Source of the DNA: Kingdonia uniflora
Lineage: Eukaryota; Streptophyta; Magnoliopsida; Ranunculales; Circaeasteraceae
Direction: 5' to 3'
Assembly: GCA_014058105.1 (NCBI GenBank)
Contig: JACGCM010002205.1
Location: forward strand, 4,278,001 to 4,342,000
Length of the DNA: 64,000 bases
The notes under the pieces were generated by a model. It was not told where the DNA came from. It saw only the letters and a list, made by a program, of their open reading frames with translations, and made no database searches. Positions within the stretch are counted from its first letter, which is position 1. Each line of letters starts with the position of its first letter. Position numbers and translations under genes: made by a program. Shown piece after piece: positions 11,948-54,496 of this stretch.

Positions 11948-12271
11948 CTATATGGCACATGTAACTCTACTAGTCGCGGCCTCTGTTTCATTGATCACAT
12001 GGTATCCGGCCCATGTAACTCTACTAGTCGTGTTATTATGCTCCGCATAATATAATGTAGCCAGAGTAAAATCTCCGGCCATGCATTCCATCTCGCCGGA
12101 TGGACTAAACTACCATAAACGACTTCATGTACACCGTCCTTAAGTACTCCCTTCATGGTCGTCCCTAATATGTGTTTGTAGTACTTCCGTTGACGTTCGA
12201 ACTTAAGTCATCAACGGCTTTAACACTACAGTTTTGGAACGAAATTCTCATATTTTGATTTAGATCAGTCC
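11948..12271 (-). pseudogene. PME piece 5: C-terminal catalytic part
   Basis: The translation resumes D-L-N-Q-N directly after the target duplication and continues I-S-F-Q-N-C-S-V-K-A, T-Y-stop-G-R-P-stop-R-E-Y (the conserved L-G-R-P-W with Leu and Trp codons turned into stops), T-L-Y-Y-A-E-H-N-N-T and R-V-T-W-A-G-Y-H-V-I-N. A small frame shift lies between 12090 and 12130. Near the end, a 19-bp word (catgtaactctactagtcg at 11958 and 12012) is duplicated 54 bp apart, repeating S-R-V-T. The TAG at 11950-11948 ends the frame a little early compared with relatives. Confidence 0.88.
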
Positions 12272-12457
12272 TGTAGGGACCTATCCATCGACCTACTCCA
12301 AACTCGAACTACCTCAATATTAGACTTACGCATTACACAAGTGAAGTGTACAGTCAGCATTGACACCTAGACCACGAACTGATAAAGAACGTGGATCGAG
12401 TACTACAGCAAAATATGAACAAGTCAAAGACACCTGTCTCCCACGAACTAATAGTTA

Positions 12458-12955
12458 GAGCATCTCCTAAAGTCTACCTTAGAATTCAAGGTGCCACCTA
12501 GGATTTTCGTCCTCCAACAGTGCCTCACTGACTTGGATTTCACCCTCCAAATCCAAGGCTGAGTCTTGGATTTAAAGACTCAGCCTTTAAATTTAATGTC
12601 GCGATCGGGCGCCCAAGTGTTGAGCGCTTATTATATTTTTAAACAGACGCCTAAGGTTTGGGCGCACAATTATTTTTTTTTAACAAAAATTCAAATCGGG
12701 CGCTTAAAACTTGGGCACCCAATTTTTTTTTTTTTTTTTTTAATTTTAAATTGGGCGCCCAAGTCTTGGGCGCCCAAATTAGACTTGTAATTTTTTTTTT
12801 TTTTTATTATTATTTTTTTTGAAAAAAAATAAAGTAGGCGCCCAACGACGCTTGTTAAAAAATCCAAGTCAGTTACTGTTGGAGGAAATAGAGTATGACC
12901 GACTTGGATTTGGCTTTTTTGCAACTAAGTCAGTCAAGCACTTTAGGAGATGCTC
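12458..12955. mobile_element. Tourist/Harbinger-type MITE in the 5' LTR of B
   Basis: Inverted ends GAGCATCTCCTAAAGT are perfect over 16 bases and flanked by TTA on both sides (12455-12457 and 12956-12958). Comparison with B's own 3' LTR, which lacks it, gives the exact empty site. A 3-bp TTA duplication with 10-bp or longer inverted ends fits PIF/Harbinger-derived MITEs. It has no coding capacity. Inside are an 11-bp-arm hairpin (12557-12585), poly(T) runs and repeated GGGCGCCC palindromes. Confidence 0.93.
12598..12850. repeat. Degenerate GC-palindrome and poly(T) repeats inside the MITE
   Basis: About four blocks of 50-60 bases repeat the pattern gggcgccc-aagt-ttgggcgc followed by a T run. 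The clearest block holds two copies of the perfect palindrome TTGGGCGCCCAA at 12751-12762 and 12766-12777. They stand out as GC-rich spots in AT-rich sequence. Confidence 0.75.
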
Positions 12956-13357
12956 TTACACATTCAACTACCACTTACCTCATTATCTGGAGAACGTGAT
13001 TCTACACGATAACGAGCTGTATGTAAGGTCTATATAAAGAAAAAGTTTTAAAGGAGATAAGAACCAGAAAAATCAGATTTTCTAGATTATAATTAGGAAT
13101 TTCTAGATTCTAAACACCACAAAAGTTCTTATTTCAAGATCATTTATTTATAGTTCAAGAGATTACTTGTAATAAAATATCAGTCTCAAACAATAAAAGT
13201 TACCGTTACTAAACCCTAAACTCGAAGTCATAATTTTTTACCTATTCAAAGGTTTTCCATGCTAAATCACCTGTGTCATTTCTTGTATTACATTAATTTT
13301 TGTCACAGATACATTTGATGTAAGATCTAATTTTGGCTACGGAATTAGACCATTACA

Positions 13358-13377
13358 TTTGGAGCCGTCTGTGGGAA
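13358..13377 (+). other. Primer binding site of element B
   Basis: tttggagccgtctgtgggaa directly follows the LTR and differs from element A's site by one base. Confidence 0.85.
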
Positions 13378-13435
13378 AGAAGATATTTTCCACGGTATCC
13401 TAATGCATACTTTACTCAACTATCCATTTCCAATC

Positions 13436-14898
13436 ATGGTCACTTCCAAGTGACCAACAATAAGAGTCCAGCTCAATCTTTTAGTTGAACCAGAATAGCT
13501 CGCTGAACTACGAGCGAATCTCCATGTCGAAATAGAGAAACGTAATGAGCTCGAATATCAGTTAACTCTTGACCATGAACTCCGCGTCAAAGAGCTCAAA
13601 AGTGAGCGTCAAGCTCGTTTGGCAACATTCAAGAGACATGAAGAATAGATGATAACTATGCAGACCGCATTACAAGCTTTGCAGAATACTCAACAGGCTC
13701 CCCATACCAGAGATCGTGATCAAGTGCCAACGAACTCCTTAGTTTCTGCACGAGAAAGATTAAGCCCTCGAGGAGCAACCAACAAAGCCGTTTCCAGAAA
13801 TCTTTAGCATGAACCTCACCTTCAATTCATTTGGGCAGAGAAGCTCAATTCGATATCAGCAGAGGTCTCCGGCCTTCCAAACGTCAAGAAGAAGAACAAC
13901 AATCTTAACTCTGAATTTCAGCACGCGGGAGCTTGAGCGAAGGCAATGGTACTCATAATCCTCAACCAGATCGCCAAGCCACTTAGACAACATGTTAGTA
14001 CGTCACACAAGAGCACATGGATCAACGTATCAAAGAGTTGATTGAAGCTCAAGCTCTAGGCAGTAAGGACAATTTTACCAAATTATAAGGTAGTTCAATT
14101 GCCAAAGAGTTATTTGATATGGAAGTACCAACATGTTTCCATACTCTGAGGATACGAAAATACAAAGGCACCAATCCGAAGGAGTACATTTAACAATTCT
14201 AAGATTCCTTGGGATTGTACTTAAATCTCAACCATATTCTATGCCGTCTGTTCGCAATAAGTCTACAGGGAGAACCGCTACAGTGGTTCCATTCTCTACC
14301 TGAAGATTTTATCCTCACCTTCGATCAACTACAGGAGATTTTCGTCAAAACTTATGCTCACAATAAAGATAAGGAGGAGAACTTAGATTCTCTTATTAGC
14401 CTCAAACAGTCACAAGGAAAGAAGCTCGAGGTCTTTGCAAAGAAGTTTCTGGAGCTCACAAGAAAAGTTAATAATTTAGATAAGAAAATAGTTGTTACTG
14501 CTTTTACCAATGCACTGTAACTCGATTACAAAGCAAAGAAGCATCTCTTCTTAAACAAACCCGCGACCTTGGAGGATATGATCACCAAGGTCAATTGGTA
14601 TGTCGACCAGGAAAGGATGATGACCGTAAGGCATAAATCTACTAAATCTATCCTAACCACTAAATGTCTAAACACAGAGAGCAATAGTGAACCAAAAGAG
14701 GACCAGGGTGATCAAAAGCGTTCCAAGGCAAACGCAGGCAAATCTCGGAAGGGCAATTTATTACCCAAGCCGGTCCTCCCCAAGATGAATGCCCGAATCT
14801 TCTCAATTTTTCCCGTTTTAGCGAAAGACAAGTTCTATCGTACATCTCAACCGCTGAAACCGATTGAAGGCAAACTGTACTGCATGCATCACAAGTAA
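13436..14898 (+). pseudogene. Gag of element B
   Basis: It starts at ATG 13436 in M-V-T-S-K, as in element C. A charged helical N-terminus is followed by the gag core at about 14100-14520 (L-C-R-L-F-A, G-E-P-L-Q-W-F, F-V-K-T-Y-A-H-N-K-D-K-E-E) and a basic tail to about 14900. Many stops and shifts are present. Confidence 0.78.
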
Positions 14899-15167
14899 AT
14901 CATCATGAAACTGACAACTGCTATGCTTTACAGACGTTGCTGGAATATATTTTCAAAGACGGGAGAATACAAGAGTATATTATCAATCTGAAATCATACA
15001 AGAATAGAAGCTACAAAACGTAGGTCGAACTAATTTAGGTCAAAGATCAAGCTAAGGAGAAACACCTGTACCATATGTACCATAGTAACATGATCGAGAT
15101 TTATCAAATTAACAAATCCTGTAGATTCAAGTGACAGAGATTGTCAGAGTGCTGTGATCTCACACCT

Positions 15168-15713
15168 CAAGATAAAGAAGCTAAACTTCTTCCTAAATTG
15201 AGCAATATTCACTGATTTGAGATTTTATTTGTGGATTGCGACATCAGTCACGTCAAGTTTCCACATCATGACGCATTAGTTATCATGCTCAAGATGAAGA
15301 AATTTGTCATGCATACAATGATGATTGATATTGGTAGTGGTATTGAGATTCTCTTTCAGAGTACAATCGAACAGATGGGGTTAGCCGATCAGGTTATTCC
15401 AAGTAACATCAATATCAGTATATTTAATGGTTCCAAGGAAGAACGAGTGGGCAAGATCATCTTACCTATCACCGCTAGACCAGCCACAATCGATGTCGTA
15501 TTCTACATCATCAACGCCAAATCTCGTTATCTCGAGATTATGGGCTACTGTTGGATCCATAACATGGAAGCAATCGCTTCCACTTATCATCAAACACTTC
15601 GCTTCAAGCATAACGATGGCATCTACAAAATTAAAAGTAGCCAAAAGCTTTCCCAAGCTTGTGAAAATACTATTTTTGGCATTCTCGGTATATCCGGCAG
15701 ATACGTTGTATAA
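15168..15713 (+). pseudogene. Aspartic protease of element B
   Basis: The active-site motif reads I-D-I-G-S-G, where the family has V-D-T-G-S-S. The surrounding M-L-K-M-K-K-F-V-M-H-T-M-M and the later Y-L-E-I-M-G-Y-C-W match A and C. The catalytic Asp is kept but the neighbouring Thr is lost. Sequence soon after this gene (about 15830) jumps directly to integrase. Confidence 0.75.
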
Positions 15714-15836
15714 CAATTACAGAGAGCTGGTCACATCGATGATCAACCTTCAACAAAAGAACCTACAAAGTACATTGACATTGATGGACCTAGCAAAGGT
15801 ACTTATATTGGTAAAAAGCTGGTCTAATACGACAAG

Positions 15837-16945
15837 TTGATAAAAAATTTAAAGCGTTATACAGTTCAAAACGACCGTTTATATCGCCGATCAGTAACAA
15901 TGATTTATCTCAAGTGCCCCTCGAATAAGAAAGCCGATGGAATGCTCAAAGAATTACATGAAGAAACTTGTGGCTCCCATGCCGTAGGTCGATCACTTGC
16001 AAACAGAGCAATTACATAAGGAGTATTCTTGCCAGAAATGCGCAAGCAACTAGAAGAGTACTCACAAAAGTGTAACACATGTCAACGACATGGACACATG
16101 ATCCATGCCTCTACACTCAAATTACATGTAAGTAAGGTATTCTGGCCATTCAAGCGGTGAGAGCTCGATCTCGTGGGAGAGTTTCCCAATACGCCAGGTA
16201 ACCACATTTCTTACTCGTGGCAACAGATTATTTTATGAAATGGGTGGAAGCATTTCCTCTTTGTCGAACTAGAGAAGAAGATGTCATATCTTTTATCTGG
16301 GAACACATTATCACATGGTTCGGATGCCTCCACCTGATTCGAATCGATAACAGGCCGCAGTTCGTTGGGGAAAAGGTTGCGGCCTTCCTTAATAAATACT
16401 ACATCATCCATTCCCCATCCAATCCATACTACCCACAAGGTAGTGGACAAGCCAAAATCACCAACAAAACCATAGTGGATGGACTAAAGAAAAGGCTTCA
16501 ATCACAGAAGAAAGGAAATTGGGTACGGGAGCTTCCTCACATCTTATGGGCATACCGTACTACTCCACGACAATCAATTGGCTGTTCTCCCTTCCTCCTA
16601 GCTTATGGCACAAAGGCCGTTATTCTAACAGAGTACCACCATCCTGTCAGAGATTACGAGCTTACAAATAATGAGAATGAATTCGAACTGGCCTGCAATA
16701 TGAATTGGATTGATAAAATTAGGGAACGCGCTATTGCCAATATAGGTCGATATCATCATTTGCTCGCAAGCTCGTACAACAGAAGAGTCCAAAGCTGTGA
16801 GTGCCAAATTGATGATCTCATCCTCAAAAAAATCTCACAGAGTAGAAAAGAAGCACATGCTAGGAAGCTCGCAGAAAATTGGAAAGGTCCTTTCCTGGTC
16901 GTTGGTCGAACTGGCATTGGATCATACTATCTCATGACAGAGTAA
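15837..16945 (+). pseudogene. Integrase of element B
   Basis: The HHCC part (15837-16100: E-L-H-E-E-T-C-G-S-H-A-V-G-R, then C-N-T-C-Q-R-H) leads to an open DDE core at 16217-16945. The core has A-T-D-Y-F-M-K-W, R-I-D-N-R-P-Q-F-V and G-Q-A-K-I-T-N, where the third catalytic residue Glu has become Lys. The rest aligns with A. Loss of that Glu and several stops make it inactive. Confidence 0.85.
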
Positions 16946-17161
16946 GGAGTTTAAATCCCAAATCTATGGTACACTAAGCGATTAAATCGATATCATCGCT
17001 AAATCTCTAGTCTCTCAATTACAAATTACTCTATTCTCATTCTTTACATTCCAAAAGTGAGATTTCAATCTTCAACAGTCTACATTCTATTTTTCTCAAT
17101 GAAAACTTCCAAGTTTTTTCCCACATTACTCTCTACTCATAGAGAATCTACTAAATCTCAT

Positions 17162-17500
17162 AGATTGAAGCAAAAGTAATACTAGCTTTCAATCGAACAT
17201 CTATACATAGATTGAAGAAAAAGTAATACTAGCTTTCAATTGAACATCTATACATAGATTGAAGCAAAGGTAATACTAGCTTTTAATCGAATATCTATAC
17301 ATATTAAGGTAAAGGTGATACTAGATTTCAAGTAACATCTATACAGATTAAAACAAAGATAATGCTAGCTTTCAATCGCCCATCTATACATATAATATCG
17401 ATTAAAACGAAGGCAATATTAGTTTTTAATCAATGATCTCTATTAGACATAAGATAAAGCAAAGGTAAAACTAGCTTTCATGTTTATACATGTCTACAAC
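17162..17500. repeat. ~47-bp tandem array in the 3' zone of element B
   Basis: The block agattgaagcaaaagtaata-ctagctttcaatcga-catctatacat is repeated about six times with growing divergence. It lies between the integrase end and the antisense genes, the same place as the arrays in A, C and D. Confidence 0.85.
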
Positions 17501-17767
17501 TACAGAAGCAATATGTCACTTGTATAAGTTGTTTGCTTATGGGAGGTCAGCTGCACTTTCCCCTACTCAGGAGGTCGTGCAGCCATAAAATCTGGAGCTC
17601 GAATAATGATAACATTCATTCCTTGCTCCACTAGTTCTGTAGGTCGGGAGCCTACTTTCATTTCCATGTCGTTCAAGCAATTTCCTCAATCTATATCAGC
17701 ATTATAGATATAGCCTCAAAATGCCACACAGTCATGCAAAGTATCCCTTTCGAGATTAAGCCTCTTT

Positions 17768-19207
17768 ACTTCTTCCACAAAATAAGCAATGATAGCCATA
17801 AGCTTCCCCGAGTGCACCTCTTCCAGGCTATAGTTCTCAAGGTCAATCATGACTACCTCGGCAAATTGCTTTTTTAACCTCTGATAACGCTACTTCAAAT
17901 CTTTGTGAAAAACATCTTCCCACTCTACTTGTTTGTTTAAGTTTTTTATCACCTCAGTTTACTGTGCCATTGTCCCCACCGCATTATCCAGCTAAGCTTT
18001 ATTCATCGTTCTCAGCCTTTCCAATTGAGCGGAAAGCTCCACCAACTCCAATTCAATTGTATCACTTCCCCTAACAGGATCCTTCTTCAGCAGCTCATCC
18101 TTCTTCTTGATCACCCCTTCTAGCTCTAGCTCTCTACGAAGATCAATATCTAACTTATACTCGCTTTCTCTTAAATGTTCATTTCCTCTTCATACGTGAG
18201 CTTAAACACGAGCTACATCCACCTCCAACTCTTTAATTCGAGCTGATGGGTTAATCACGTCACTCTTAGCAGTCGAGACCTCGGCGTCAGTCTTTTTCAT
18301 CTTTGACCGCTCTCCGGCCTTGGCCTTCTTGGCTCACGAATCGGCCATAACCAAATCCATCTTCAACCTTGTAACCCTCATATTCAGTTCGTTACACCAT
18401 TTTTGGGCCATCCGAAGATTAATATCATTAGTAGGCAAGGCCTCACTCAGCTGCTTAACCACATTTTCAGAACTTGCCAGGTTAGTTACTTCTTCCATAA
18501 AATAAGCAATAACAGCCATCAGTTCCCTCGAGTGCACCTCTTTCAGGCCATACTTCTGTCGGTTAAGCATGACTTCCTTGGAAAATTGCTATTTTAACTT
18601 CTGATAACGCTGCTACAAATCTTTGTGAAAAACATTTTCCCTCAATGCTTGTTTCCTTAAGTTTTTATCGTCTTAGTTTGCTGCGCTATTGTCCCTGCCG
18701 TATTATCCAGCTCAACTTTATTCATCTTCCTCAACCTTTCCAATTGATCACGAAGTTCCACCAACTCCCATTCATTTGTACCACTTCCCCCAATAGGATA
18801 CTTCTTCAGTAACTCATCCTTCCTCTTAATCACCCCCTCTAGCTCTAGCTTTTTACGAAGAGCAATATCTAACTTATACTCACTTTTTCCTAAATGTTCG
18901 TTTCTTCTCCTTATGTGAGCTTGAACATGAGCTACAACCGCCTCCAACTCTTTAATTTGAGTTGATGGCTTAATCACCTCACCCTTAACAGTTGAGACCT
19001 CGGCGTCAATCTTTTTCTTATTTAACCGCTTTTTGGCCTCGGCCTTCTTGGCTCGCGAATTGGCCATAGCCAAATCCGCCTTCAACCTTGCAACCCTCTC
19101 ATTTAGTTCATTACACCATTTTTGGGCCAGCGGAATATCAATATCTTTAGCAGGCAAGGCCTCACTTAACTTCTCAACCACACTTTCGGAACTTGCCAGG
19201 TCAGTTC
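17768..19207 (-). repeat. 720-bp in-frame tandem duplication in the antisense coiled coil of B
   Basis: Copy 1 spans about 17768-18487 and copy 2 about 18488-19207. Landmarks recur at exactly 720 bases: acttcttcca-aaaataagcaat at 17768 and 18488, and similarly the g-taccatttttgggcc word near 18391 and 19108. The size equals 240 codons, so the coil would be lengthened without a frame change. Element C has a single copy in this place. Confidence 0.85.
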
Positions 19208-22200
19208 GAACTTTCTCAAGTTCATTTTCTTTCCTAATCATTTTACAATTTAATTGCTCAATCGCACTTTCTAAACTTATCAGGTCAGCTCGAGACTTCT
19301 CAAGCTGTTTACTTTCCCGATCATTTGACTCTTCAAATTAGTGACAAAGTCCTGTAACTCTTTTTCTGTCACTTCTAACGACTTGATACGATATTGAGCC
19401 ACATCTACTTCTTTACCTTTCACCATCAATAAATTTATCCTGCTTTTGAGCTTCGCTGTTTCAGTCTGCGTCTCCGCAATCTCCTTTTGTACTTTTTCGT
19501 TTTCAGCATCTTTACCTTCGATCTTCCGAGACAGGTCATCCATAGTTTTTGTTGCCTTAGCAAACTGGATATGTACTTTGATATATTGATCCTCCCTATC
19601 TTCAGGTACCTTTTTAATCTTATTAAACTTAGCCACAAACTCATGATTATATTGGAGCGTCTGATCGCTCAGGCGAACAGTCTCTATTTCGACTAGCATC
19701 ACCAAGCTCGATTCAACAATTCTTCATAAATACAATCAATATATATTACAGATAACTTTACAAATTTTTAATAGATTTCTGTTTCTGACATACCAACAAG
19801 CTGAGAATATACTTTGGCCCCAAGTTAAGAAGCTATCTCACAATAATGGCAATGACATCTACATCTTCTTTCAAGGTACACATTTTCTATGTTTTAATTT
19901 GCTAACCCTCTAAAATAATATGAACATACTGGATTACTATTGTTTATAATTTTCTAACATATTTGTGATCTATATCTATCTTCTAACTTTACTATTTCTT
20001 GCTCTTTTCTAACCTATAGCTCTGCTTGCGAAGTCAACAGGAACGCTAAGGCATTTTTCTCCTTAGTAAGCTCTTTTTCTAATTCCTCAATTCTAAGGCA
20101 CATATCTTTAAGTTTCTATAAATCAATGTTTACGAACATTTCTTAGCCTATCCAAAATTTATCCTACAAATCAATGTACCATACCCTTACAGTTTTTCAA
20201 CCCACATAAAAACATAAACAAACTCCAAACAATTTTACTCTACCTTCTCATTATCTCCCTCATGGTTATCTAGATCAGTTCTAGCAGAGACCGAGTCCAG
20301 CCTTGTAACCACATCTGGGAGAGAGCCATCATCAACCTGGAGCTCCTCTTATACTTCAGCCTCTTCGACATAGGTACCTGCTATAATGGCTTCAAGGTCA
20401 GCAGTAGAGTACCCCAATATGAGAAGTTGGCGCCCAAGACTATCCCAAGCAGCTGCAACTTCGTTAACATTCTCTTGCGCCTCGTCAGTGAGCTCGCGTA
20501 TCAACACCTTATGCAAGTCCCTCACGAAAACCAAGTGCTCCCTCTCCAATGCCAGATCGAACTCCAGTTGAGCCACCTTTTTCTCAAGCCCGGCTCTCCC
20601 GCCCTCGAGCTCAGTCCTTCCTTTCTCAAGCCCAAGGAAGATACCCTTAAACATCCGAGCAGCCTAATACAGAAAAAAATACTTTTTAGCTCAAAAACAA
20701 ATACAGGTTCAAATATCACAGACACATCAACTTACCACCCTGCTCAACTCTAACTGTGCAGAGGTATTCAGCTCCTCAGCGCCTGCTCGAGCTACCAGCC
20801 TCAATCAGTTCTCCAATGCCAGTAGCTCGTTCCCCTCAACAAGTCGATTCTTCCTAACCTTCGACCCACTCACAATAGTAGGAGCATCCACCCTAATCTT
20901 CTTCGAGTTTACCTCGACCTCACCATTCACCGTGGACCCCAAGGTCTAGTTACCCTTAACAGCCTTCCTCTTTAAGTGCTTTTGAGCTAATTTGCTCACA
21001 GTAGTACCCCTAGAAACATTCTGCAGTGACATTGGCACAACCCTCGGTACCACCGGACGTTCTTCCCCGTCTGCTGCTTTTTTCTTGCTGGCTCCAACTC
21101 TTGTCATTTGTCTCTTGGCTTGAGACTTTTGTACTTTCTCTGACCTGCTGTTAACCCTTTTGTTTCTGCTAATTCCAAGCTCTTTCAAAACAATCTCGAG
21201 CTCAACACCTTCTCAAGCTACATTGTCTATCAACGATTCTCTTTTCAGTACTTTAGATCGAGGACCTGCAATATAACACAACAAATTATTCAACAAACAC
21301 AGAACGACCTATATTATAACAATTTAATATCATATACAATTACTTACTTTTCTTCAAAGTTCTATATACAAGGTCCATGGGGTTCCTCATCCATTCTCTG
21401 AATACATTCACCTTTCATCCATATCATATTATCGTTCCAAGCTCGTCTTGCTGAATTCAGATCGAAGAAAAAAGGGTGATATGAACTAGAACAAAAATAC
21501 GTACCTCCAGTTGCAGGGTAATATTTTACAGAGTAATACTGCAAAACATTTGCAGGAGTTATTTTTCTCTCCACCTCGCGCGTTCTCTTCCCACAATCTA
21601 TTTAGATTATCCCAAATATTAATCACCTCCCACATATTCATATTCAGTTAGGCAGGACAGGGGAATATGGACTGATGCTGCCTCTTAGTAATCTTGCTAA
21701 AGGTAATTTGAATACCATATTCCAACTAAGAGGCAGCATCAGTCCATATTCTAACTGAGAATGATAGCACAGAAAACCCTGCTCCAGGTCTCTTTGGACA
21801 TTACCATCAAAGTATTAAAAAAAGATCGATTACTCCACTCTCCTCTTCAATTTCTCCTATTCTAAATTGGGTAACAAGAAGAAATGCTCTTTCCCAGTTG
21901 ACACAGTACAACCCCTAAAAGACCTCCCAGCGCGCTCTACGACATTACCCCATGTCCCACCTAAAGTTTGATTTTACAGAATTCTTTAAATACATCAGAC
22001 TTTGGAGGATAGTATACCAAATGACCAGAGAAATCTAAAAATTATACTTCATCCTCCCCCTCAGAGTCAATATTTACAGCCTCTACATTTTTAGATTCAC
22101 CCATACGACCAAAGGTCGACGTCTCCATATCAGGTGACACCTCTATATCAAATATAGGCTTGAGGATGAGGCTAAGTTATATAACAGATTCACCTCATGC

Positions 22201-22660
22201 CTCAACCTACATACAGGTCTAGGTATTCTGTCAATTTTCTCAATCATTTTTTTTGTCTATACATTTCCATACATACATATACATACATCATATACATATA
22301 TCATTTTTCACGCAAATAAACAGATTTCCCCAAAAGTTTACTATAAATAGAAATTTTTTCAAATTTTGAAAATTTAAAAATATCGTAATTTCCATTTCAA
22401 ACTTCACAATCACCAAATCATAAATCAGCCACTAACCTTCAACGTCTGAATACGAGTCAAGAACAACACCCAATCCATCTTTTATAACGGCACCGCGCGC
22501 CCAATATCTTGACTCTACCTCTACAACTTTCTCTCTCCTTCTACGATTATTGTTGTCATCTAATCTCTCACTTGAATCTCTGTAACTTACTCTCTTTTCT
22601 CTCCCTCTATTCTTTCATTTTACTAGATTTGATAAATGTTTGAATGAGGAAGACAAACAA

Positions 22661-22669
22661 TTATTTATA
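22661..22669 (-). promoter_or_regulatory. Candidate TATA box for antisense gene c (element B)
   Basis: The minus strand reads TATAAATAA. A matching but decayed motif is found at the same place before the first exon in E (near 30810) and C (near 50770). This suggests that the antisense gene has its own promoter inside the element. Confidence 0.4.
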
Positions 22670-22700
22670 CTTTCCCTCTATAATTGCTGGTAGTTATTGG

Positions 22701-23130
22701 GCCTCACACAAGTTGCCTTCGATTTTGGAACTGAGGCGTCCCTTCTATAATTAATGTCAGGCGTTTTGTACCTTTTTAGTGAAAGCGCCTTCCCATCATT
22801 ATCCTACATCATATATTTTAATATATTTTTCTCCCTCCTACCCAAATCTCTCTCTAATCTTCCACTCATGATGACTCTATATCATACGCAATCAAACTTT
22901 TTCTACCCTTACACAAAAGACAAAAAGTAAAGCTGATCTGATTTCTTAATACCTACTTATGTAACTTATAGAACTTCTGACGTCATTTCCAATTCTATAA
23001 TACTTCAAAATTCAAAATTTGTATTCACCAAAGTTTCCAACAATATTTACAACAAAACAGGAACAACTTCAGTAGAAACATTCTACCTACATTCACATTC
23101 CAGTTAATCGATTTAACTCAGTTCATTCAC
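22701..23130. other. Spacer between antisense genes b and c of element B
   Basis: AT-rich, with several TATA-like words and no supported coding sequence. Confidence 0.4.
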
Positions 23131-23484: not shown

Positions 23485-23523
23485 TTTTACTGCTTCCTCC
23501 TCTCTACATAACCTTTCAAGCAT

Positions 23524-24990: not shown

Positions 24991-25004
24991 TACGAGGGGG
25001 CAAT
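24991..25004 (+). other. Polypurine tract of element B
   Basis: tacgagggggcaat directly precedes the 3' LTR. The core gaggggg recurs before the 3' LTRs of E (33194) and C (53171). Confidence 0.75.
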
Positions 25005-41420: not shown

Positions 41421-41498
41421 TTTGGCATCGTCTATGGGAAAGAAGACATTTCCATGATATCCTAAGGCATACAATTACTCAACTATCTATTTTCAATC

Positions 41499-42939: not shown

Positions 42940-43166
42940 GAAACTGACAACTTTTATGCTTTATAGAGGTTGTTGGAATATATTTTTCAAGACAAGACAA
43001 TGCATGAGTACATTGTTGACCTAGAAGGATATTAAAATTGAAGCTATAAGGCGCAGGTCAAAGTAGTTCAAGTCGAAGATCAATCTGAGGAAAAACACTT
43101 ATACCATATGTACCATAGTAAAATGATCAAGATCCATCAAATCAACAACTCTACCAGATTCAAGTA

Positions 43167-43742
43167 GTGGAGATTAATGGAAGCTGCGACCTTACCGTTC
43201 AGGATAAAGAAGATAAACTCCTTCCTGAATCAAGCAATCGACGACTTAGGATTTTATTTGAGGATTGTGATATCAGTCACGTCAAGTTTCCTCGTTATAA
43301 CGCTCTGGTTATCATGCTGAAGATGAAGAAATTTATCATGCATACCATGATAATTGATACTAGTAGCGGTATCGAAATCATCTTTTAGAGTATAATCAAG
43401 CAAATGGGAGTAACCGATCAAGTGAATCTAAGCAACATCGATATCAGTGGGTTTAATGGAACTAAGGAAGAATAAGTGTGTAAGATCATCCTACCCATTA
43501 CTGCTGAACCATTCATAATCAACGTCGTTTTCTACATCATCAACGCCAAATATCGTTACTTAGGGACTATGGGCCGCTGCTGGATTTACAACATGGAAGC
43601 AATCGCTTCCACGTACCATCAAGCACTTCTCTTCAAGCATAATGGTAGCATCTATAAAATCAGAGGCAGTCAAAAGCTTTTACGAGTTTGCAAAAATACT
43701 GTCTCTACCATAGCCGACACATCTAATAGATTTGCTGTATAG
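43167..43742 (+). pseudogene. Aspartic protease of element C
   Basis: The active-site motif reads I-D-T-S-S-G, with Gly of D-T-G changed to Ser. The rest matches A and B in order. A stop lies at about 43387. Confidence 0.75.
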
Positions 43743-43849
43743 CAATTATAGAAAGCTGGTCACATCGATCTCTAGCCTTCAACAGAAAAACCTACAGAAT
43801 ACGAAGCTGGTCTATCCCAAAAAGGAGGCCCTCGTTCACTTTTTACAAA

Positions 43850-44460
43850 TGAACCAAGACGTCCTTGCTTGGACTTTTAAAAAAAATGCCAGGAGTCGAC
43901 CCAGCCAAGGTATGTCACAGATTGAGCATCAACAACAATTCTACGGTAGTCAAACAGAAATAGAGAAGACTATCACCTTATCTTCAAGATAAAGTTAACA
44001 ATGAAATCAATAAATTGATCAAAGTTAGATTTATTCGAGAAGCTGAGTACCCAGATTGAATCTCCAACATTGTTTGATGTTCAAAAGACGAATGGGAAGG
44101 TCCGAGTTTGTGTAGATTTTTCAGATCTAAACAAACACACTCCAAAGGGCAATTTTCCTCTTCCAATCATTCATCAAATTCTCGATTAAGTGGCAGGACA
44201 CGAGATCTTATCTATGATGGATGCTACTTTCGAATATAATCAGATCCCCATTCTAGAGGACGATCAGGAAAAAACTACTTTCATCACTGAAAGAGGGCTC
44301 TACTATTACAGAGTCATGCATTTTGGACTGAAGAACGCTGGGGAAACGTATCAACATTTAATGACAACAATAATCAAAGTATACTTGTGAAAGATTGTTG
44401 AAGTATATATCGATGACCTACTCTGCAAAAGCTTATAGAAGAAGGATTATATCATAGATC
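43850..44460 (+). pseudogene. Reverse transcriptase of element C
   Basis: It shows V-C-V-D-F-S-D-L-N, H-E-I-L-S-M-M-D-A-T, T-F-I-T-E-R-G-L-Y, F-G-L-K-N-A-G-E-T-Y-Q and V-Y-I-D-D-L-L in several frames. The catalytic Y-I-D-D is still readable. Confidence 0.8.
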
Positions 44461-44508
44461 ACGATACAATCTTCTATATTTAACGCTCATATAACATGAG
44501 GCTTAACC

Positions 44509-45207
44509 TTGATAAATGTCAGTTCGGATTATACTCGGGCAAATTCCTGGGACATCTTATTTGCAAGAAAGAGATTAAGGCCGATCCGGATCAAATTTGA
44601 GCTCTACTCAACATGTCGTCTCCAGCAACAAAGAAAGATGTTCAGAAACTTGCTGGCAGGATCACCGTTCTCAATCTCTTTGCCTCTAAGTCCTCAGATT
44701 GATGCCGATGGCTGTTCATGTTACTTCGAGGATGTACTGCTCAAGGAAAGATTCGACCTAATGAAGAGATCGATTAAACAGAAAAATGCGTGGCAGCATT
44801 TTAAGAACTCAAAAACTTATTTGGGGAAGTCTCCTATAATAAGTACCCCAATAAACAATGAGGAATTGATCATTTACCTCACAGTTACAAAAAACTCTCT
44901 TAGCTCAGTCCTCATTCGACTTGAAGGAAAGCTAGTGTATTTCATCAACAAGACCCTCATTCTAACAGAAACAAGATACTCCAAGAATGAGCGACTCCTT
45001 TTAACTTTCGGCTACACTTCACAAAATCTCAAATATTACTTCCAAACTCATTCTGTCAAAGTTATCATGAACTACCAACTCCAGGAAATTCTATCTAAAA
45101 AAGAGAAATCAAGAAGGGTGTATCAATGGTCTGTAAGTTTGGGAGAACATTATATCAAATTCAGGCAGCGCCATTCAGAAAAAGGTCAAGCAGTTGCTAA
45201 TTTTTAG
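44509..45207 (+). pseudogene. RT-linked RNase H of element C
   Basis: An open frame of 232 codons covers the RT thumb and connection in shifted frame, then Y-L-T-V-T-K-N-S-L, Y-F-I-N-K-T-L-I-L-T-E-T-R-Y. Its C-terminal end reads Q-A-V-A-N-F. Confidence 0.65.
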
Positions 45208-45239
45208 CAGATTTTCCTATATAAAATTCATATTGGGAG

Positions 45240-45760
45240 GAACACGACCCTGATCTCACATACAAAATAGCAGAAGATCTACCTACCAAACCCTTTGACG
45301 AAAGAGCTGAATGGGTTACAAGAAAAGGATGGAGACTTCTTACAGATGACTCAGCATGATCTGCAGGGTTAGGTATTGGTATCGTACTGATTACCCCATT
45401 AAATGACAGAATTGAAAAATTAATCGGCTTAGATTTTGAAGCCTTGAATAATGTCATAGAATATGAAGTTTTTATTAATGGGCTCAATTTAGCGCTAGAA
45501 CTCGACATTCCTGAGCTATCAGTCTATATAAATTTATTGCTAATCGTCCACCATTACTCTGAACAGTACAAGAAGAACGATAAAATGGTCGACTATGCAT
45601 CCCTCATTGCTGATAAGATGAGCAGATTCGTGAAAGCTACTCTCAACTATTTACCATGATGAGATAACAGACACGCCGATTCCTTGGCTTACTTAGCCGG
45701 GGTCTTGGGTACAGAAGCACGATACCTCCAAATCGAAGTGATATCAGCCACCAACATTGA
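45240..45760 (+). pseudogene. Archaeal-type RNase H of element C
   Basis: R-L-L-T-D-D-S, N-N-V-I-E-Y-E-V-F-I-N-G-L and H-A-D-S-L-A-Y-L-A-G correspond to the second RNase H of element A. It has two stops. Confidence 0.65.
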
Positions 45761-45809
45761 TCCCCACTCTGTATGCGCGATCAACACTAGGGGCGATGAA
45801 GAGGAGGAT

Positions 45810-46252
45810 GTCTATTGAAGGAAACCATTTATCGCCTACCTCGGCCCAAATAACAAATGTGATGGACCCCATCCAGAAGATACAAAAGAACGTCAGTATC
45901 TAATCACAAATTCAAAACATTATACCATTCAGAAAGGCTTTTTATATTACCATTTAGTTATAGGGCCTAATCTCAAATGCCTCTCCAAGAAGCAAGTTGA
46001 TGGAATGTACAAGGACTTACACGAAGGAACTCATGGCTCCCATGTTACAGGTCGGTCACTTGCAAATAGAGAAATTACATAAGAAGTATTCTGGCCAGGA
46101 AGGCACAATCAAGCGAAAGAGTACTTGCGACGATGCGACAAATGTCAATGACATGGGCACATAATACGAGCCCCTACACTCGAGCTCCATGCGAGCAAGG
46201 TATTCTGGCCTTTTAAGAGGTGGGGACTCGATCTAGTGGGTGAATATTTGTA
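45810..46252 (+). pseudogene. Integrase N-terminal remnant of element C
   Basis: The HHCC region is recognisable (D-L-H-E-G-T-H-G-S-H-V-T-G-R; C-D-K-C-Q), then W-G-L-D-L-V-G-E, and immediately after 46252 the sequence joins the 3' non-coding zone. The whole DDE core, about 700 bases compared with B, has been deleted. Confidence 0.8.
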
Positions 46253-46394
46253 GTCTCATTATTTACATTCCACAAGTGAGATTCCAATCTCTAACAGTTT
46301 GTATATTCTTTTTTACTCAATAAAAACTTTTAAGTTTTTTTCCCACATTACTCTCTGCAGACATACATGTAGACTCTACTCAATCTCAAAGATT

Positions 46395-46540
46395 AAAGTA
46401 AAGGTAACACTATCTTTCAATCGATACATCTATACAAATATCAGCGATTAAATCAAAGGTAATACTAGTTTTTAATAAATTATCTCTACTATATCTAAGA
46501 CACAAGATAAAGAATAGGTAAAACTAGCTTTCATCTTTCT
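46395..46540. repeat. Short tandem array in the 3' zone of element C
   Basis: About three diverged copies of the B-type unit (gattaaagtaaaggtaacac-tatctttcaatcg and variants). The unit family is shared with B but the copy number is lower. Confidence 0.7.
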
Positions 46541-49500
46541 AAACATCTACCATATCAAAACAGCAGGTTACTTGTACAGGTTTTTCTTGTGGAAGGTCAG
46601 CTACGCTTTCCCCAATAGTGGGAGGTCGTGAAGCCATAAAATTTGACGCTCGAGCGACTACAATATCCCTTTCTCGCTCCAGTTGTTCTGCAGTAATGGG
46701 GCCTATATCAGTCACCATAGAGTTCATGCAATTCCCTCGATATACTTCAGTATTATTGATACAACCTTTCAATGCCAAATATTCATGCAAGGTATCCCTT
46801 TCGAACTCCAACCTCTTTACTTCTTCTACAAAATAGGTAATTACTGCCATTATCTCCCTTGAGTGCACCTAATCCATGGAAATCGTGTGCCGGTTCAGCA
46901 CGGCCAGCTCAACAAAATTTACCTTTAATTTCTTATAATGGTTATCAAGATGTGTGTAGCGGGCATTGGCTCGCTCTAAGCATCGCTCAAAGTCCAATAT
47001 AACCCCTGTCAATTCCAATATCAATCCCATTAACTTCTCTTGTTTAGCTCAATTTTTCTTATTTAACTCCTCTAATTCACCACAAAATTCCCCCAACTTC
47101 ACCTCATTTACATCACGTCCCCCAGCACTAGCTTTCTTCAAAATCTCATCCTTCCTCTTAATAATTTCATTTAACTCATTCTCTTTAAGGAGAGTACCCT
47201 CTAACCTATTACCACTCTCTCTAGTTTGTTTATTAGCTTTCCTCATGACAGCTCGAACAAAGACTAAATCTGCCTCCAACTCTTTAATTTGAGCTTGGGT
47301 ACTAACCACATCACCCTTGGTAGTCGCAACCTCAGCGTCATTATGTCTCTTCTTCGACCTCTCTCCAACCTCAGCTTTTATGCCGTGCGAACAGCCAAGT
47401 TCACCTTTAGATTTGCAACTCACTCATTTAGTTTGTCACATTGATTTAGGGTGACCCGAAGAATAATATATTTTCCTTGCATGGCCTTACTCATCTTCTC
47501 TACTTCACTTGCGACACTTGCTAAATCAGTTCCCGCTTTCATATGTTTGCTTTCCTTATTATCTTCTTGACCCTCCAAAGTGGTAACATAGTCTCACAGC
47601 TCTTTAGTTTCCACCTCAAACATTCTGATGCAATATTGCGCGACATCTACATCTTTACTTTCTACCCCCAATAATTTTACCAGACTGTTCAACTTTGCCA
47701 CTTCATTCTGTACACTAATGAGCTCCCCCTGAAATTTTTCATTTTCAGCATCTTTACTCTTGGTCTGCTGGGTCGGATCATTCATAGTCTTCACTGCCTT
47801 AGCAATTTTGACCTCCATTTTGACATACTGATCCCCACTATCTTTACTTGCCTCTCTTATCCTTTCAAAATCGAGCTTATACTCATAATTGCATTCCATA
47901 GCATATTCCTCACAAGTTCGAACAACTTCTAACTCGGCCTGCATAAATAACTCGATTAAACGGTACTCCAAAAATACGGTCAATAAATTATAGTTCGCTA
48001 TACACATATCTAACAGAGTTCTTTCTATCATGCACCAATAAAACAAGATGCTACTTATCCCTCAAGCTACACAGTTTTCTTAACCTGATAGCCATACCAT
48101 CTACCTCTCAGAATCAGATGACACCGTTGAATTTTAAAATATTTTAAGGTACACATTTTCTACGTTCTCATTCTCTAACATTATAAAAAAGGTCTTATTA
48201 AACTTCTTGGATTACTCTAGAGTTACACACAAACAAGTAAAAAATTTTGAGCTATTTTCTAACCTGTAGTTTCTTGTGCGAAGTTAACAGAGTTACTGAA
48301 GAGTTTTGCTCCTTAGCGACCTCTTTCTTTAAATCCTCAATTATGAGGTGTAAACCATCAAGTTCCTACAAATCAATATTTACAACATATCTTCGACTAC
48401 TCCAAAATTATCTAACACATATATTCCATACAATAACAGTTTTCTACTCACAAATACTAATTTCAAATTTTTACTCTACCTTCTCCTCATCCCCTTCACG
48501 GTTCTCTAAATCAGTTCTCGCCGAGACCCCATCTAACCCTTTTACAGTCTCCTGGGGGGACTCACCTTCACCATCAGGCTCCTCTTCAGCATCGGCCTCT
48601 TCAACTTCGACAAAATGCCCCTCTATAATCACCTCAGTATCAGACATGGAGTATCCAACCTTGAGGAGCTTCTAACCGAGGTTGTCACGAGCAACTGAAG
48701 CTTCCTCAACATTCTTCTTCGACTCTTCTGCGAGTTTGAGTATCATGAATCTAAACGAATCTTTTAGGTCGGATATCGCAGAGCTCGAACCCTCATTCTC
48801 TTATGCTAAATCGGCCTTGAGTTAAGTAACCCTCTTCTCGAGCTCAGTCCTCCCTTCCTCGAGCCCAAGGCAGATTCCTTTCTATAAACGAGAAACCTAT
48901 AACAAAAATGAAACATTTTAGTTCGAAAATAGCATAAGAATCAAACAAAATGAAGCATTTCACTTACCTTACAAAGCTCTAACTTCACAGATATTCCCAG
49001 ATCCTCAGAACCTTCTCGATCTCGAGCTGCTACCCTCAGCCTGTTCTCCACAGCCAACAACTCATCCTCCATAATGGGACTACTGCCAAACTTCTTGACT
49101 TTCTTACTGAAGCAGGAGTGTCCGCCTTTCTCTTTTTTGAACTCATTCTGGCCTTTTCACTCTCTATGGACACCGAGTTCGACCCATCAATTTTCAGATT
49201 CTTCCTTTTTGGGAATTAATTTGCTCGATGTAGCCCCCAAAGGCTTTAACTTTAGAGAAATTAGTGCCACCTTCACTTGTGTTGGACGTCCTTCAAAGTC
49301 CGATACTCCCTTTCCTCCATCTCCCGCGGCCGCGCTAGTTTCAGACATTTTTCTTAGCTTGCGACTTCTGCACTTTTTTCGACTTGCTGTTAGCTCTTTT
49401 AAATCTGCTTATTTCAGGCTCTCCTAACACAATCTCGAACTCTGATCCTTCTCGAGCTACGGTATCAATTAGCAATTCCTTTCTCGCCACTTGAGATCGT

Positions 49501-50800
49501 GGATCTGCACGAAAACAACACATTGTTACATACAGACAAAATGCTAACATAAAAATAACAGTTCGATATCACAAACAATTACTTACTTTTCTTCATAATT
49601 TTATTTATAAGATCTATGGGTTCCTCATCCACTCTATGGAGACAATTGCCCTTCACCCATTTCAAGTTATTATTCCATACTCGTCCTGCCGAATTCAGAT
49701 CAAATAACTGAGGTCAAGATGAACTAGAAGGGAAGTACGGGCCTCTAGTGGCTGTATAGTATTTTACAGTATAATACTGCAAAACATCTAAAGGAGTTAT
49801 TCTCCTCTCCACCCCCTTAAAAGCCAACCTTCTATTCAAATTATCGCACATATTTATCACTTCCCACATATTCCTATTTAGTTAGGTAAGGCAGGCCTCA
49901 ATGGCATTCAAAATCTCTCTAGCAAGATTGCTTGAAGGCACCATCAATCAAAAATCTAACTGGGATAGATAACACAAGAATTCCTAGTCCAAATCACTGT
50001 TGACACCCCCATTGAAGTACTCAAAGGAGATAAACTCATCCACTCTCCTCTTAGATTTCTCATGCTCTAAATCTGACAATAAGAAAAAGTATTCGTCACC
50101 ATTTTTAACTGTACACTCCCTAAACGACCTACCGGCATGTTCTATTACCTCACCCCATATATCACCTAAACAACCTTTAATTTTACAAAGCTCTTTGAAT
50201 ACATCTAAATCTATAGGATATGATACACAGTTACTAGGGAAATTTGGAAACTCTAATTCATCCTTCCCCTCCACCTCTTACTCTACTGCTTCCGAACTTT
50301 CCGTTCTCAGCTCGTCCCCCACAAAATCTATATTATCAATTTCTACAGGTACAACCTCAATCAAATAACAAGAGGTTAAAGTCTCCATATTAAGAGTATG
50401 CTTGAAAGTGAGATTTATTTCTACAACAGAGCCTTCTTACGCTCTACCTACATACAGGTTCAAGTATTCCAATTATATAATTCTTCTAAATTCACAACAA
50501 CACAAATCAACAAAATCAACCATATAGCCCACTAACCTTCAACGTCAGAATAAGAATCCAGGATGTCACACGCCTCCTCTTTCACAATAAAACTCCACAA
50601 CATGGGTTTCTGATCGAACTCCACAACAGCGACCCCCTTTATCCTTCAGTTTTGATGGCTGCTTTAGTTTACTCTATCTCAAGAATCTCTGCAACTCAAT
50701 TTTTTTTTTCTCCCTATAGTTTTTCGTCTCTCTGTGTTTTACAAACGTTTGAACGAAGAAGAAGGGTTATTTACACTTTTTCTCTCCAATTGATGGCAGT
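46539..50800 (-). pseudogene. Antisense gene c of element C
   Basis: Exon 1 ends at GTTGAAG|GTTAGT near 50538. The globular part is at 49984-50274 (V-F-K-E-L-C-K-I-K-G, F-E-Y-F-N-G-G-V). A basic stretch lies at 49341-49550, an acidic part near 48480-48700, and coiled coils at 47594-48046 and 47049-47423. The C-terminal end at 46539-46868 reads R-P-P-T-I-G-E-S-V-A-D-L-P. The coil region is single-copy, unlike in B. Confidence 0.6.
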
Positions 50801-51118
50801 TATTGGGGCACACACAAGCCACCCTCGGTTTTGGAACCGAGGTGTCCCTTCCACTATTCATGTCAGACGTTTTTTACTTTTTGGGCAAAAATGCATTTCC
50901 ATCATTACCCCATGTCATATATTTAAATGTATATCTCTCTCTCCTACTCAAATCCCTCTCACACCTTCCCATACTTATTATGATACACTCGCCTCACACG
51001 CAAACTAACTTTCTCACCCGCAAAAAGTAAATAAAGCATGATAATCTGATTCCTACCCTCCTACTCCTAACTTATTCAACATCTAACATCATTTCCAATG
51101 CTATACCATTTCAAAAGT

Positions 51119-51580
51119 TTAAATATTCATTTTCAACAACATGCACAACAAACAAGGAGAAAATTCAGAAGGAAGTATTCTCTCTTTATTTTTCTTACAT
51201 TTATTCGAACTAAAGAGTTCGTCCTCCCAAAAATAGTTACACATAAAACAACCATGATGCCCTGGGTCGCCACACTTAATCAGTTCATTCCTAACAATCT
51301 TTTCATCTTCCTCTGCTATTTCTTCCAGGGCAATTTCCTTTACCATAGTTTTTTGAGCTTCAGGCTCAACAACTAATTCACGAAATATCTCACACCATAA
51401 ATGACGCCCAATATCGTTCTCCCTTTCCCTCGAAGTCAAATCATCAAATTATATTGAAGATTCAAGCAAGTTTGCATCATATTCTAACTGCCTAAATATC
51501 CTATCCCAAATTTCAGCAACCTTTTTCGCTAAACGCCCCTCCGACGCATGCCGAGCTCTCTGAGAATGAGTCCTCGCCAT
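51119..51580 (-). pseudogene. Antisense gene b of element C
   Basis: ATG 51580 begins M-A-R-T-H-S-Q-R-A-R-H, in frame with 51439-51119 apart from one stop near 51450. The C-terminal cluster C-G-D-P-G-H-H-G-C-F-M-C keeps the C-x7-C-x2-C spacing seen in B. Confidence 0.55.
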
Positions 51581-52115
51581 TTTTCCTCCTCTCAACCTCA
51601 AAATTCCAACATTATTTATACATACAGATTACGATCGCACACAATCCCCCATATTCAACATATAGAATGGTAACTATCAATCCCCTTATCCATAACTAAC
51701 AACCCTAAAATCTTGCTAGATATTTATTTGATTATATCTTTTCCGAGTGAACTCTGTATGTCTTATTCAACCATATATTTTTCAAACTAAATTCAACACC
51801 CCATTAACTAGTTTTCCTGCATTACAAAATATATCTACCAGTTTGAATTCTTCGTTACAAGGCATTACATTATGCCAAGCTTGACCTATAAAATTTCTTT
51901 CAGCAAAATTTTATCTCTACAGACTTTCTATCACACACAATTTGATCTATCGTAATTTCTAATTAACAATGCTAATCTCGAACTCTAGTACACATGTTTT
52001 ACCTTCATACAGATCGATTCTTTCATTTCACAACATTACCTTCTACTCCAAGGTGCTATATTGTAGCTCAATCAATTAGATTTCTTATAGTTCGACATAA
52101 GTACCTATTACATTA

Positions 52116-52118
<3 letters not shown>

Positions 52119-52199
<81 letters not shown>
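52119..52199. repeat. (AT)n microsatellite
   Basis: About 40 AT units with one internal irregularity (ataataat). It lies between antisense genes a and b of element C. Confidence 0.97.
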
Positions 52200-52203
<4 letters not shown>

Positions 52204-52649
52204 TCCCATCAAACACAGATCGATCTATCAAAATTTCAATTTCCATACTAATTTCTAGTTCTATCAAAGGAGCATTACTGTATTTTTTTTATTAGCTCGA
52301 CAATTCCTTACAAAATACTTTAAAGAAGGCACAATATTTTAGAAATTTCCTATAGATAAATCTACAGGTACAATACATATAAGATTTTATCTGTACTTTG
52401 TATTCAAGCACATCCCCTTCAAGAAAGAAATGTTTGTTGTAACAAAACCGTACTTCCAATCTAAAGACTAGAAGCATATTTTTAGTCTGAAACCACAACC
52501 ACCGTCTCTTCCTCCGTAACCTCAATCACCTCAGAATGGCAGATAAAGAAGAATGACTCTATTTCTATAAAGTCCAATCCCTCTCAGGATAACGGCAGTA
52601 CTTTCTGGTACGTACACTGACTTCCTCATCTACCTTATTAATGAGATCC

Positions 52650-52841
52650 TCTGTAAGAGGATGCAAACATACCCGACGCTGCTCACCTAATATAATCAAA
52701 TGGTGGAGCAGCGTGATACGTTGGCAAAATAGGTATGGGAGTGGGTAAATCTAAAGGTTGGTTGCCAAAATATTGCAGATGGAGCTTCTGAACTTTTGTA
52801 AGAACCCTTGTTTCATATACTTGACGTCTAGTAGTCTCTAT
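52650..52841 (-). pseudogene. Antisense gene a of element C
   Basis: The start codon position (52841) reads ATA. T-T-R-R-Q-V-Y-E-T-R, L-Q-Y-F-G-N-Q-P-L-D-L-P and P-T-Y-H align with gene a of B. Confidence 0.5.
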
Positions 52842-53181
52842 TCTCAAGACAAGGAGGAACTCAATTTTTTTTAAGTGTAAAGTACTTTTGCAGGAATAAC
52901 CAATGATACTGTAACAACTATATTTATAGCAGAACAACATTCAATGCAAGAAAGGAGTTCTAAGGTAGTCATCAATCAAGCCAGTACTTATTGGGAAACC
53001 CAAAAGCTAAATACATTAGTCCTTTCAAATGCCTTCAGTGCTAAATATAATCTTTAACAGAGAAGTGAGAAGTCCCAACCCGGTCTAATTTCATAGTATA
53101 CCTTTCTAAATTCCAATACCAATATTCAAACAAACATTTCACAAATAAAGCCACCTGCGCCTTCAATTGTGAGGGGGCAAT

Positions 53182-53771
53182 TATAAGGACCTATCCCTCG
53201 ACCTATTCCAAGCTCGAACTGATTATAGGGATATGTCCCTCAACCTATTCCAAGCTCAAACTACCATAATACCTGACTCATGCATTATGCACATGACATA
53301 TACAATCAACAATGACACCTGGACCACAAATTGATAAAGAACGTGGATCGAGCACTACAAAAAATATGAATAAATCAAAGTCACCTGTCTCTCACAAACT
53401 AGCAATTACACATTCAACTATCACCAACCCTATTTTTAGGAGAACGTGCCTCTACAAGATGTCGAGCTGAGAGTGAGGTCTATAAAAAGGATGAGTTCCA
53501 GAGGAGAAAGAACCAAGAATTTTATACTATAAGATCAAGTTTTTCAAACTCAAATGATATAGAAACTTGTAATCAAATATCAGCCTTGAACAATAAAGTT
53601 ACAGTTACTAAATCTTTAAACAGAGGTTGTGGTTTTTACCTATTCAAAGGTTTTCACGCTAATCACCTGTGTTATTTTTATATTGGGTTATACTAATTCT
53701 TGTCACAGGTACATTTGGTGTAAGAGCTAATTTCGAGATATTTTGAGCTACTACGAAATTAGGCCATTACA
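53182..53771 (+). repeat. 3' LTR of element C
   Basis: 590 bases from tataaggacc to ggccattaca, preceded by the polypurine tract gtgagggggcaat. Confidence 0.9.
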
Positions 53772-54329
53772 ATAACTACTTTAACTTGTAGAAGATTCAA
53801 TCATAAAGCATTAATGCACACATGATTTTAATGGAGGTAAAAAATCAAAAGGATCAAAACTACCCCCCCCCCCCCCCCCCCCCCCCACACACACGACAAG
53901 CATGACGAATCTATTATCAAGCAAATGGTTGTAAGAAGTTTCAGGGATCTCTTAACCTCACCTCAACCCTTACAGATAATCCCCAACAAGATACCCTAGA
54001 AAGGATACCCAAGAAATCTCAAAACCTTAAATGTCATCCTTTTCTTTCTTTAGAACCTTTCTCTCCATTGGTGAATTTTTACTACATAACCCTTAGGCTT
54101 AACAAAGCCCTAACTTTATAATGAACATTACATGAGGCTTTATCCCAAAATACGCATCACGATACACTTTAAACAACCTAAAAAAGTTGTTATGGACTTT
54201 CTATTCGAACATGATCTATTCCTATTTGAATAGACTCAAGTCTGACTCTTCTATTCAAACAGAAAATATCCTGTTCGAATAGAAACTAAAAAAAACTTCT
54301 TTCTTCGATTTTGAGCCGTAAGCCTAACA
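53772..54329 (-). repeat. Right (5') LTR of F, remaining part
   Basis: It continues the LTR after element C and ends gcctaaca. It contains the 24-C run (53863-53886) and four TTCGAA-type boxes in U3 (54201-54282). Confidence 0.85.
53863..53886. repeat. Homopolymer of 24 C
   Basis: An unbroken C run followed by acacacac, inside the right LTR of F. The sister LTR at 34631 reads cccct at this place. Confidence 0.95.
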
Positions 54330-54496
54330 TCGTTGACTGTCCATGAACCATTATGGGGGAGTTGTGATTATCAAAAAGGAGGGTTAAGTGTTGAGTTACA
54401 AATATTATTTAGTGTCGATGTAGGATTAAGGGATGAAAGAGAAGGATATAAGAACATCAAGATGAGAATGATGAGGAATGAGATGGTGCAAGCCAT
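54330..54496 (-). pseudogene. PME piece 1: signal peptide and start of inhibitor domain
   Basis: From ATG 54496 the frame gives M-A-C-T-I-S-F and a hydrophobic run ending P-S-L-S-S, a typical secretory signal. I-C-N-S-T-L-N-P-P-F follows (family motif I-C-x-S-T-x-x-P-x-x-C), then two stops where Cys and Lys would be expected. After S-Q-L-P-H-N-G-S-W-T-V-N the insertion F begins. The opposite-strand ORF at 54333-54608 is a shadow of this exon. Confidence 0.85.

Follow-up and report, generated by a model that had tools for sequence, protein, structure and literature searches.

A pectin methylesterase pseudogene of Kingdonia uniflora split by four direct insertions and their nested elements

Background

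Long terminal repeat (LTR) retrotransposons of plant genomes can be nested, with LTR elements residing inside older ones. Such nesting more often concerns Ty3/gypsy elements, and LTRs are not commonly its targets, according to Jedlicka et al. (2019; PMC6911290). Here we describe a nest in Kingdonia uniflora (assembly GCA_014058105.1, contig JACGCM010002205.1, positions 4,278,001 to 4,342,000), a stretch of 64,000 nucleotides that we call the window and whose own numbering is used below. The nest has dispersed a gene for a pectin methylesterase (PME) preceded by a PME inhibitor (PMEI) domain. LTR elements residing inside older ones are seen here as well. Against the reported pattern, two nested retroelements (E and G) and a miniature inverted-repeat transposable element (MITE) all sit in LTRs, and the substrate of the nest is one recognisable gene.

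Among titles and abstract openings, we found no title on a PME locus split in such a manner. LTR elements nested within dead plant genes nevertheless form a known kind of structure, and this locus is a clean, datable and well-preserved example of an ordinary process, leaving general views unchanged. Its use lies in a single place where nesting, LTR divergence and coding decay reveal the order of several insertions, with an annotated Aquilegia counterpart for comparison. It also illustrates that, where repeats are plentiful, a single dead gene may be predicted as a number of unrelated fragments.

Intact PMEI-PME proteins, which many of the matches call "probable pectinesterase/pectinesterase inhibitor 7/41", share with the window PME the order of domains, colinearity over the full length and the presence of one intron. 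The window PME is unlike working members in its stop codons, frame changes, loss of catalytic aspartates and missing C-terminus. The nearest described loci are AQUCO_01000267v1 and AQUCO_01000268v1 of Aquilegia. Their tags adjoin that of a WAG-like kinase (269v1), and they share a clade with the window PME in both PME trees described below. The Aquilegia annotation has two proteins here, with 529 and 503 residues, whereas the window holds one broken copy.

Results and discussion

Pieces of the gene and their junctions

Five minus-strand pieces (Table 1) are, with hardly any doubt, the remains of one PMEI-PME gene with one intron, which has lost its function and whose body has been split by four direct insertions, called B, H, F1 and F. 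The 1.7 kb of the gene are now spread over about 42.5 kb. The pieces lie where the initial annotation had placed them, and translation together with junction projection identifies them as successive PMEI-PME segments; the intron it had proposed at 26722-26521 does run from GT to AG. A full-length colinear match of the joined translation to a plant PME, which was to be expected of one gene, was found in AQUCO_01000267v1 (P0003; 52% identity, 97% coverage), the closest of the listed matches after P0001 (876 aa) and P0002 (648 aa), both longer gene models.

The joined read-through carries PF04043 (PMEI) at 28-176 (45 bits, 1.4e-11) and PF01095 (PME) at 214-495 (275 bits, 6.6e-82) in a single chain and in the order typical for the family, and also matches the carrot and tomato PME structures. 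Aligned to carrot PME (1gq8), YQDSLY has become YQYTLY and TVDFIF has become TIGFIF, so that both aspartates of the catalytic pair are replaced; four residues around KHQ are absent as well. Up to the end of homology, the 492 codons contain 7 stops, and there are 4 frame changes. The window PME is thus a pseudogene of the PMEI-PME family and not a working member.

The junctions were projected onto 120 listed PMEs, the best 120 of 2153 protein-database matches; residues missing or overlapping were counted only for PMEs matching both neighbouring pieces. Between pieces 1 and 2 no residue is lost or overlapping in 48 of 102 PMEs, and 98 of the 102 fall within +/-1. Between pieces 2 and 3 the count is zero in 107/120. 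It is "1" between pieces 3 and 4 (108/119) and between pieces 4 and 5 (119/119), because the junction residue was omitted from the piece sequences. Frame 0, followed from the ATG, passes all four element junctions once one 5-bp copy is removed, and is lost only where small frame changes occur in pairs, once in piece 3 and once in piece 5. The idea that the frame closes at 5-bp duplications therefore holds as to the frame, while the duplications themselves are mostly inexact.

The 3' end differs from the initial annotation, which had extended the gene to 11948. Homology ends at 11960 for 83 of the 119 listed PMEs that match there (range 11951-11984). About 25-30 C-terminal residues are gone, which means that the PME did not originally stop at the TAG of 11948-11950. 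Visual inspection of the three minus frames over 10996-12000 revealed nothing recognisable as the lost C-terminus. Near the truncated end a 19-bp stretch is present twice, at 11958-11976 and 12012-12030; the loss of the C-terminus may have left it as a scar of repair.

Table 1. Features of the PME locus (window coordinates)
Feature	Position	Strand	Description
PME piece 1	54335..54496	-	ATG, hydrophobic N-terminus, start of PMEI; two adjacent stops
PME piece 2	34248..34480	-	PMEI domain, without stops
PME piece 3, end of exon 1	26723..27210	-	last part of PMEI, linker and first part of PME domain; two frame changes
PME intron	26521..26722	-	202 bp, GT...AG
PME piece 3, start of exon 2	26479..26520	-	VVV*QGFVGVNITF
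PME piece 4	25606..25851	-	NTTGA...TTQG; D to Y and D to G at two catalytic Asp; four residues around KHQ absent
PME piece 5	11960..12271	-	GRTD... to ...YHVINETEAA; C-terminal 25-30 residues absent; two frame changes, two stops
Insertion B	12272..25600	+	Ty3/gypsy, 13.3 kb; LTRs 12272-13335 (with MITE) and 25003-25600
Insertion H	25852..26473	-	solo LTR, 622 bp, family of F
Insertion F1, first part	27211..28061	.	unclassified, 30% GC
Insertion F1, second part	33784..34242	.	1.3 kb in all with first part
Insertion F	34481..54329	-	LTR retroelement in PME orientation, host of G and E
F 3' LTR	34481-34719 + 40407-40538	-	remainder deleted
F internal remnant	40539-40765	-	most of interior deleted
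F 5' LTR	40766-40829 + 53777-54329	-	split by E
Element C	28062..33778	+	in F1; shortened relative of B/E; LTRs 28062-28343 (partial) and 33205-33778
Element G	34720..40401	+	Ty1/copia in F 3' LTR; LTRs 34720-35413 and 39701-40401
Element E	40830..53771	+	Ty3/gypsy in F 5' LTR; LTRs 40830-41420 and 53182-53771
MITE	12458..12955	.	498 bp, in B 5' LTR; 16-bp terminal inverted repeats GAGCATCTCCTAAAGT, TTA/TTA duplication
WAG1/WAG2-like protein kinase	9580..10998	+	472 aa, convergent with PME; Pkinase 6.2e-58; no internal stop

Direct insertions and nested elements

Four direct insertions were indeed recovered, with three retroelements nested in them (E and G in F, C in F1) and a MITE in the 5' LTR of B. 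B and E are relatives, 76% identical over 13112-15773 and 64-75% in the rest of the interior, with LTRs of about 600 bp; B is without the region of reverse transcriptase (RT) and RNase H present in E. The latter shows the order RVT_1, RT_RNaseH, RVT_3 and H2C2 (H2C2, the integrase zinc finger, below cutoff), so that a second RNase H-like domain precedes the zinc finger. A dual RNase H is the mark of Tat elements of Ty3/gypsy, and E is Tat-like in this respect; the whole-element domain scan covered E. G has gag, integrase and then RVT_2 reverse transcriptase, the order of Ty1/copia. The interior of C gave no Pfam family in the three plus frames. With its terminal inverted repeats and TTA duplication the MITE is of the Tourist type.

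H is a solo LTR, a single LTR devoid of internal region and flanked by GTTCA/GTTCT. In the remnant of F a primer site resembling initiator-Met-tRNA adjoins the 5' LTR, with one mismatch to the motif when read by eye. F1 has no stop-free stretch over 74 aa and no TG...CA ends. In minus orientation it ends with a run of 8 A followed by GTC, and it is perhaps a LINE-type (long interspersed nuclear element) or retrocopy insertion.

The nesting of E, G and the MITE is confirmed by empty sites in sister LTRs: those of E and G in the other LTR of F (for G also in H), that of the MITE in the 3' LTR of B. C is without a sister sequence, and its nesting rests on LTR homology and a duplication matching at 4/5 positions (CAAGA/AAAGA). 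G likewise has 4/5 (ATAGA/ATAAA), as has H, and F has 3/5 (TTATT/TCGTT). The F1 duplication is perfect (TAAGA/TAAGA, 5/5); the border was chosen by it, so the match is no independent evidence. For B, H and F, whose ends were set by LTR homology, 9/15 pooled bases match (binomial P 0.006).

Two observations belong to the elements themselves. The LTR of E begins with a 42-bp tandem duplication (53180-53262); the other LTR has a similar start, so the duplication probably predates the insertion of E. The 3' region of B contains a direct duplication of 720 bp (84%, 17766-19206) and an antisense open reading frame (ORF) of 194 codons (18657-19241) without Pfam match.

Age of the insertions and death of the gene

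Ages were estimated as the Kimura two-parameter (K2P) distance between the LTRs of an element, with 95% bootstrap intervals, half of it being assigned to each lineage. F is the most diverged, at 0.221 (0.169-0.282), or 0.11 per lineage (0.085-0.141). The others are E at 0.165 (0.130-0.203; 0.083 per lineage), B at 0.156 (0.119-0.195; 0.078), G at 0.119 (0.091-0.146; 0.059) and C, from 282 bp only, at 0.104 (0.067-0.147; 0.052). By point estimates F is older than the two elements it hosts, E and G, which fits what nesting demands; the interval of E overlaps that of F, that of G does not. The divergence of H from F (0.233) makes H of the generation of F or younger, if it came from a like source, and F1 is older than C. 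As a rough guide only, a substitution rate of 1.3e-8 per site per year would translate into ages of about 8.5 million years for F and about 4 million for C.

A stop-codon clock for the death of the PME gives d 0.121 (0.049-0.250) at kappa 2, 0.105 at kappa 1 and 0.143 at kappa 4. The branch of the pseudogene measures 0.83 against 0.51-0.64 in four relatives in the tree of 20 PMEs, and 1.04 against 0.67-0.84 in that of 35; by hand arithmetic over both trees, the excess corresponds to d of about 0.09-0.19. Point estimates for B, G and C lie below the death of the gene, with overlapping intervals.

The initial annotation saw in the locus a fossil recorder, an inactive gene taking up hits. This is a fair description; that death preceded the hits does not follow from the data for F, H or F1. 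The stop clock overlaps the age of F, so death and the insertion of F are indistinguishable in time. That F (or H or F1) itself killed the gene, with the stops coming later, has a chance just short of even: both the stop clock and the branch-length estimate overlap F (0.111 per lineage, 0.085-0.141), and nothing speaks clearly against it, though an earlier unseen disabling change is equally possible.

The locus very probably formed as follows. A PME gene, whose 3' end points at that of a neighbouring, uninterrupted WAG-like kinase gene, lost its function and drifted. F entered the PMEI exon, F1 the end of PMEI, and H and B the PME domain. E and G nested in the two LTRs of F, C in F1 and the MITE in the 5' LTR of B, each integration leaving a short duplication since decayed to varying degree. 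Ordinary integration into DNA free of selection, followed by nesting, accounts for this. The insertions appear to fall within one past period of activity, and the kinase was presumably kept clean by selection and not by special protection.

The distribution of hits was also considered. Four of the 8 recognised insertions of the nest lie on the 1.7-kb PME, which makes up about 10% of the estimated neutral exposure; 7/8 lie on PME, F or F1, and one (the MITE in B) inside the large elements. The probability of at least 4 of 8 is 0.005, or 0.0028 without the MITE and 0.0009 if exposure runs to the present. This calculation was made after the fact with rough ages and with lengths set by hand, omits elements outside the nest and concerns a gene picked for its insertions; it was set aside as evidence. 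That the dead PME and the small old targets were hit beyond their share is improbable. If true, integration could favour the chromatin of genes that have recently died next to a live gene.

The neighbouring kinase and the origin of the pieces

The kinase gene beside the PME is clean, as had been claimed, its reading frame being uninterrupted. Its product is 70-72% identical to that of Macleaya and 65-66% to AQUCO_01000269v1 (P0135). The latter and the Aquilegia PMEs 267v1 (P0003) and 268v1 (P0044) carry consecutive tags on contigs of 6,881,409 each. The intact syntenic locus sought in a relative is thus found, by locus tags, in this PME pair beside a WAG-like kinase, and 267v1/268v1 are likely the orthologous counterpart of the window PME.

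Trees were built from hand-picked rows, 20 or 35 of the 120 listed PMEs and 24 of 119 listed kinase relatives. Both PME trees unite the window PME with four Ranunculaceae PMEs (support 99/98 in the smaller one; Shimodaira-Hasegawa-like approximate likelihood ratio test, SH-aLRT, 96 in the larger). The kinase stands beside Ranunculaceae (SH-aLRT 92). Trees of pieces 1+2 (SH-aLRT 94) and of piece 3 (82; marked as a long row whose position is unsure) agree in their placement.

Several points weigh against a single gene with this history. Both PME trees place other PMEs of Ranunculales (Coptis, Kingdonia, Macleaya) elsewhere. The terminal branch of the window PME is long (0.83-1.04) and the branch joining it to Ranunculaceae very short (0.0027 in the 20-PME tree), so long-branch attraction is possible; the kinase tree and the locus tags are independent of this problem. 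Synteny is based on the consecutive tags of one relative. F1 is without recognised termini or family. The duplication of B matches at 2/5 positions (AGTCC/GGATC) and that of E directly at 2/5 (GTCAT/ATAAC), each copy of E having 3/5 against GTTAC of the sister LTR. The tree of pieces 4+5 is without resolution, Coptis_005509 and Aquilegia_267 being nearest by path. Finally, the top PME match differs from piece to piece (P0044, P0026, P0004, P0050 and P0001 for pieces 1-5), and P0003 ranks 17, 79, 4, 11 and 95. Best matches to different paralogues had been named beforehand as the finding that would speak against one gene; the raw top matches do differ, and the trees of pieces 1+2 and 3 agree. 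Discordant ranks are expected of short, decayed pieces, yet they are the weakest part of the case.

These ranks, the unresolved tree of pieces 4+5 and the two consecutively tagged Aquilegia PMEs are what an assemblage of paralogues from a tandem cluster, joined by deletion or recombination, would have in its favour. Such an origin is very improbable and was rejected. In the majority of the 102-120 comparisons neighbouring pieces join with no residue lost or duplicated, the breaks coincide with element ends bearing duplications, and pieces 1+2 and 3 share one placement. Moreover, tblastn with the 120 listed PMEs (E<0.1) yields outside the pieces just two matches, 8 and 11 residues long; P0097 gives both of them, at 53862-53898. 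Still less credible, and likewise rejected, is an assembly artefact in which PME fragments were wrongly joined to unrelated repeats. Misjoins are a known hazard in repeat-rich sequence, but they would produce neither empty sites in sister LTRs nor ages in keeping with E and G being nested in F. A functional gene whose introns have been greatly enlarged by elements may be practically discarded, since, despite the persisting GT...AG intron and a piece 2 free of stops, the breaks lie inside coding sequence at duplications, there are 7 stops and 4 frame changes, both catalytic aspartates are replaced and the C-terminus was not found.

Other features of the window

For the window as a whole, an Rfam scan at gathering score and a tRNA scan gave no match. 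A tandem array at 1695-2297 (144-bp unit, 4.2 copies, 90% matches) adjoins minus-strand gypsy-like ORFs and B-like matches at about 2373-8077. Another array, with a 90-bp unit in about 7 copies, occupies 61925-62546.

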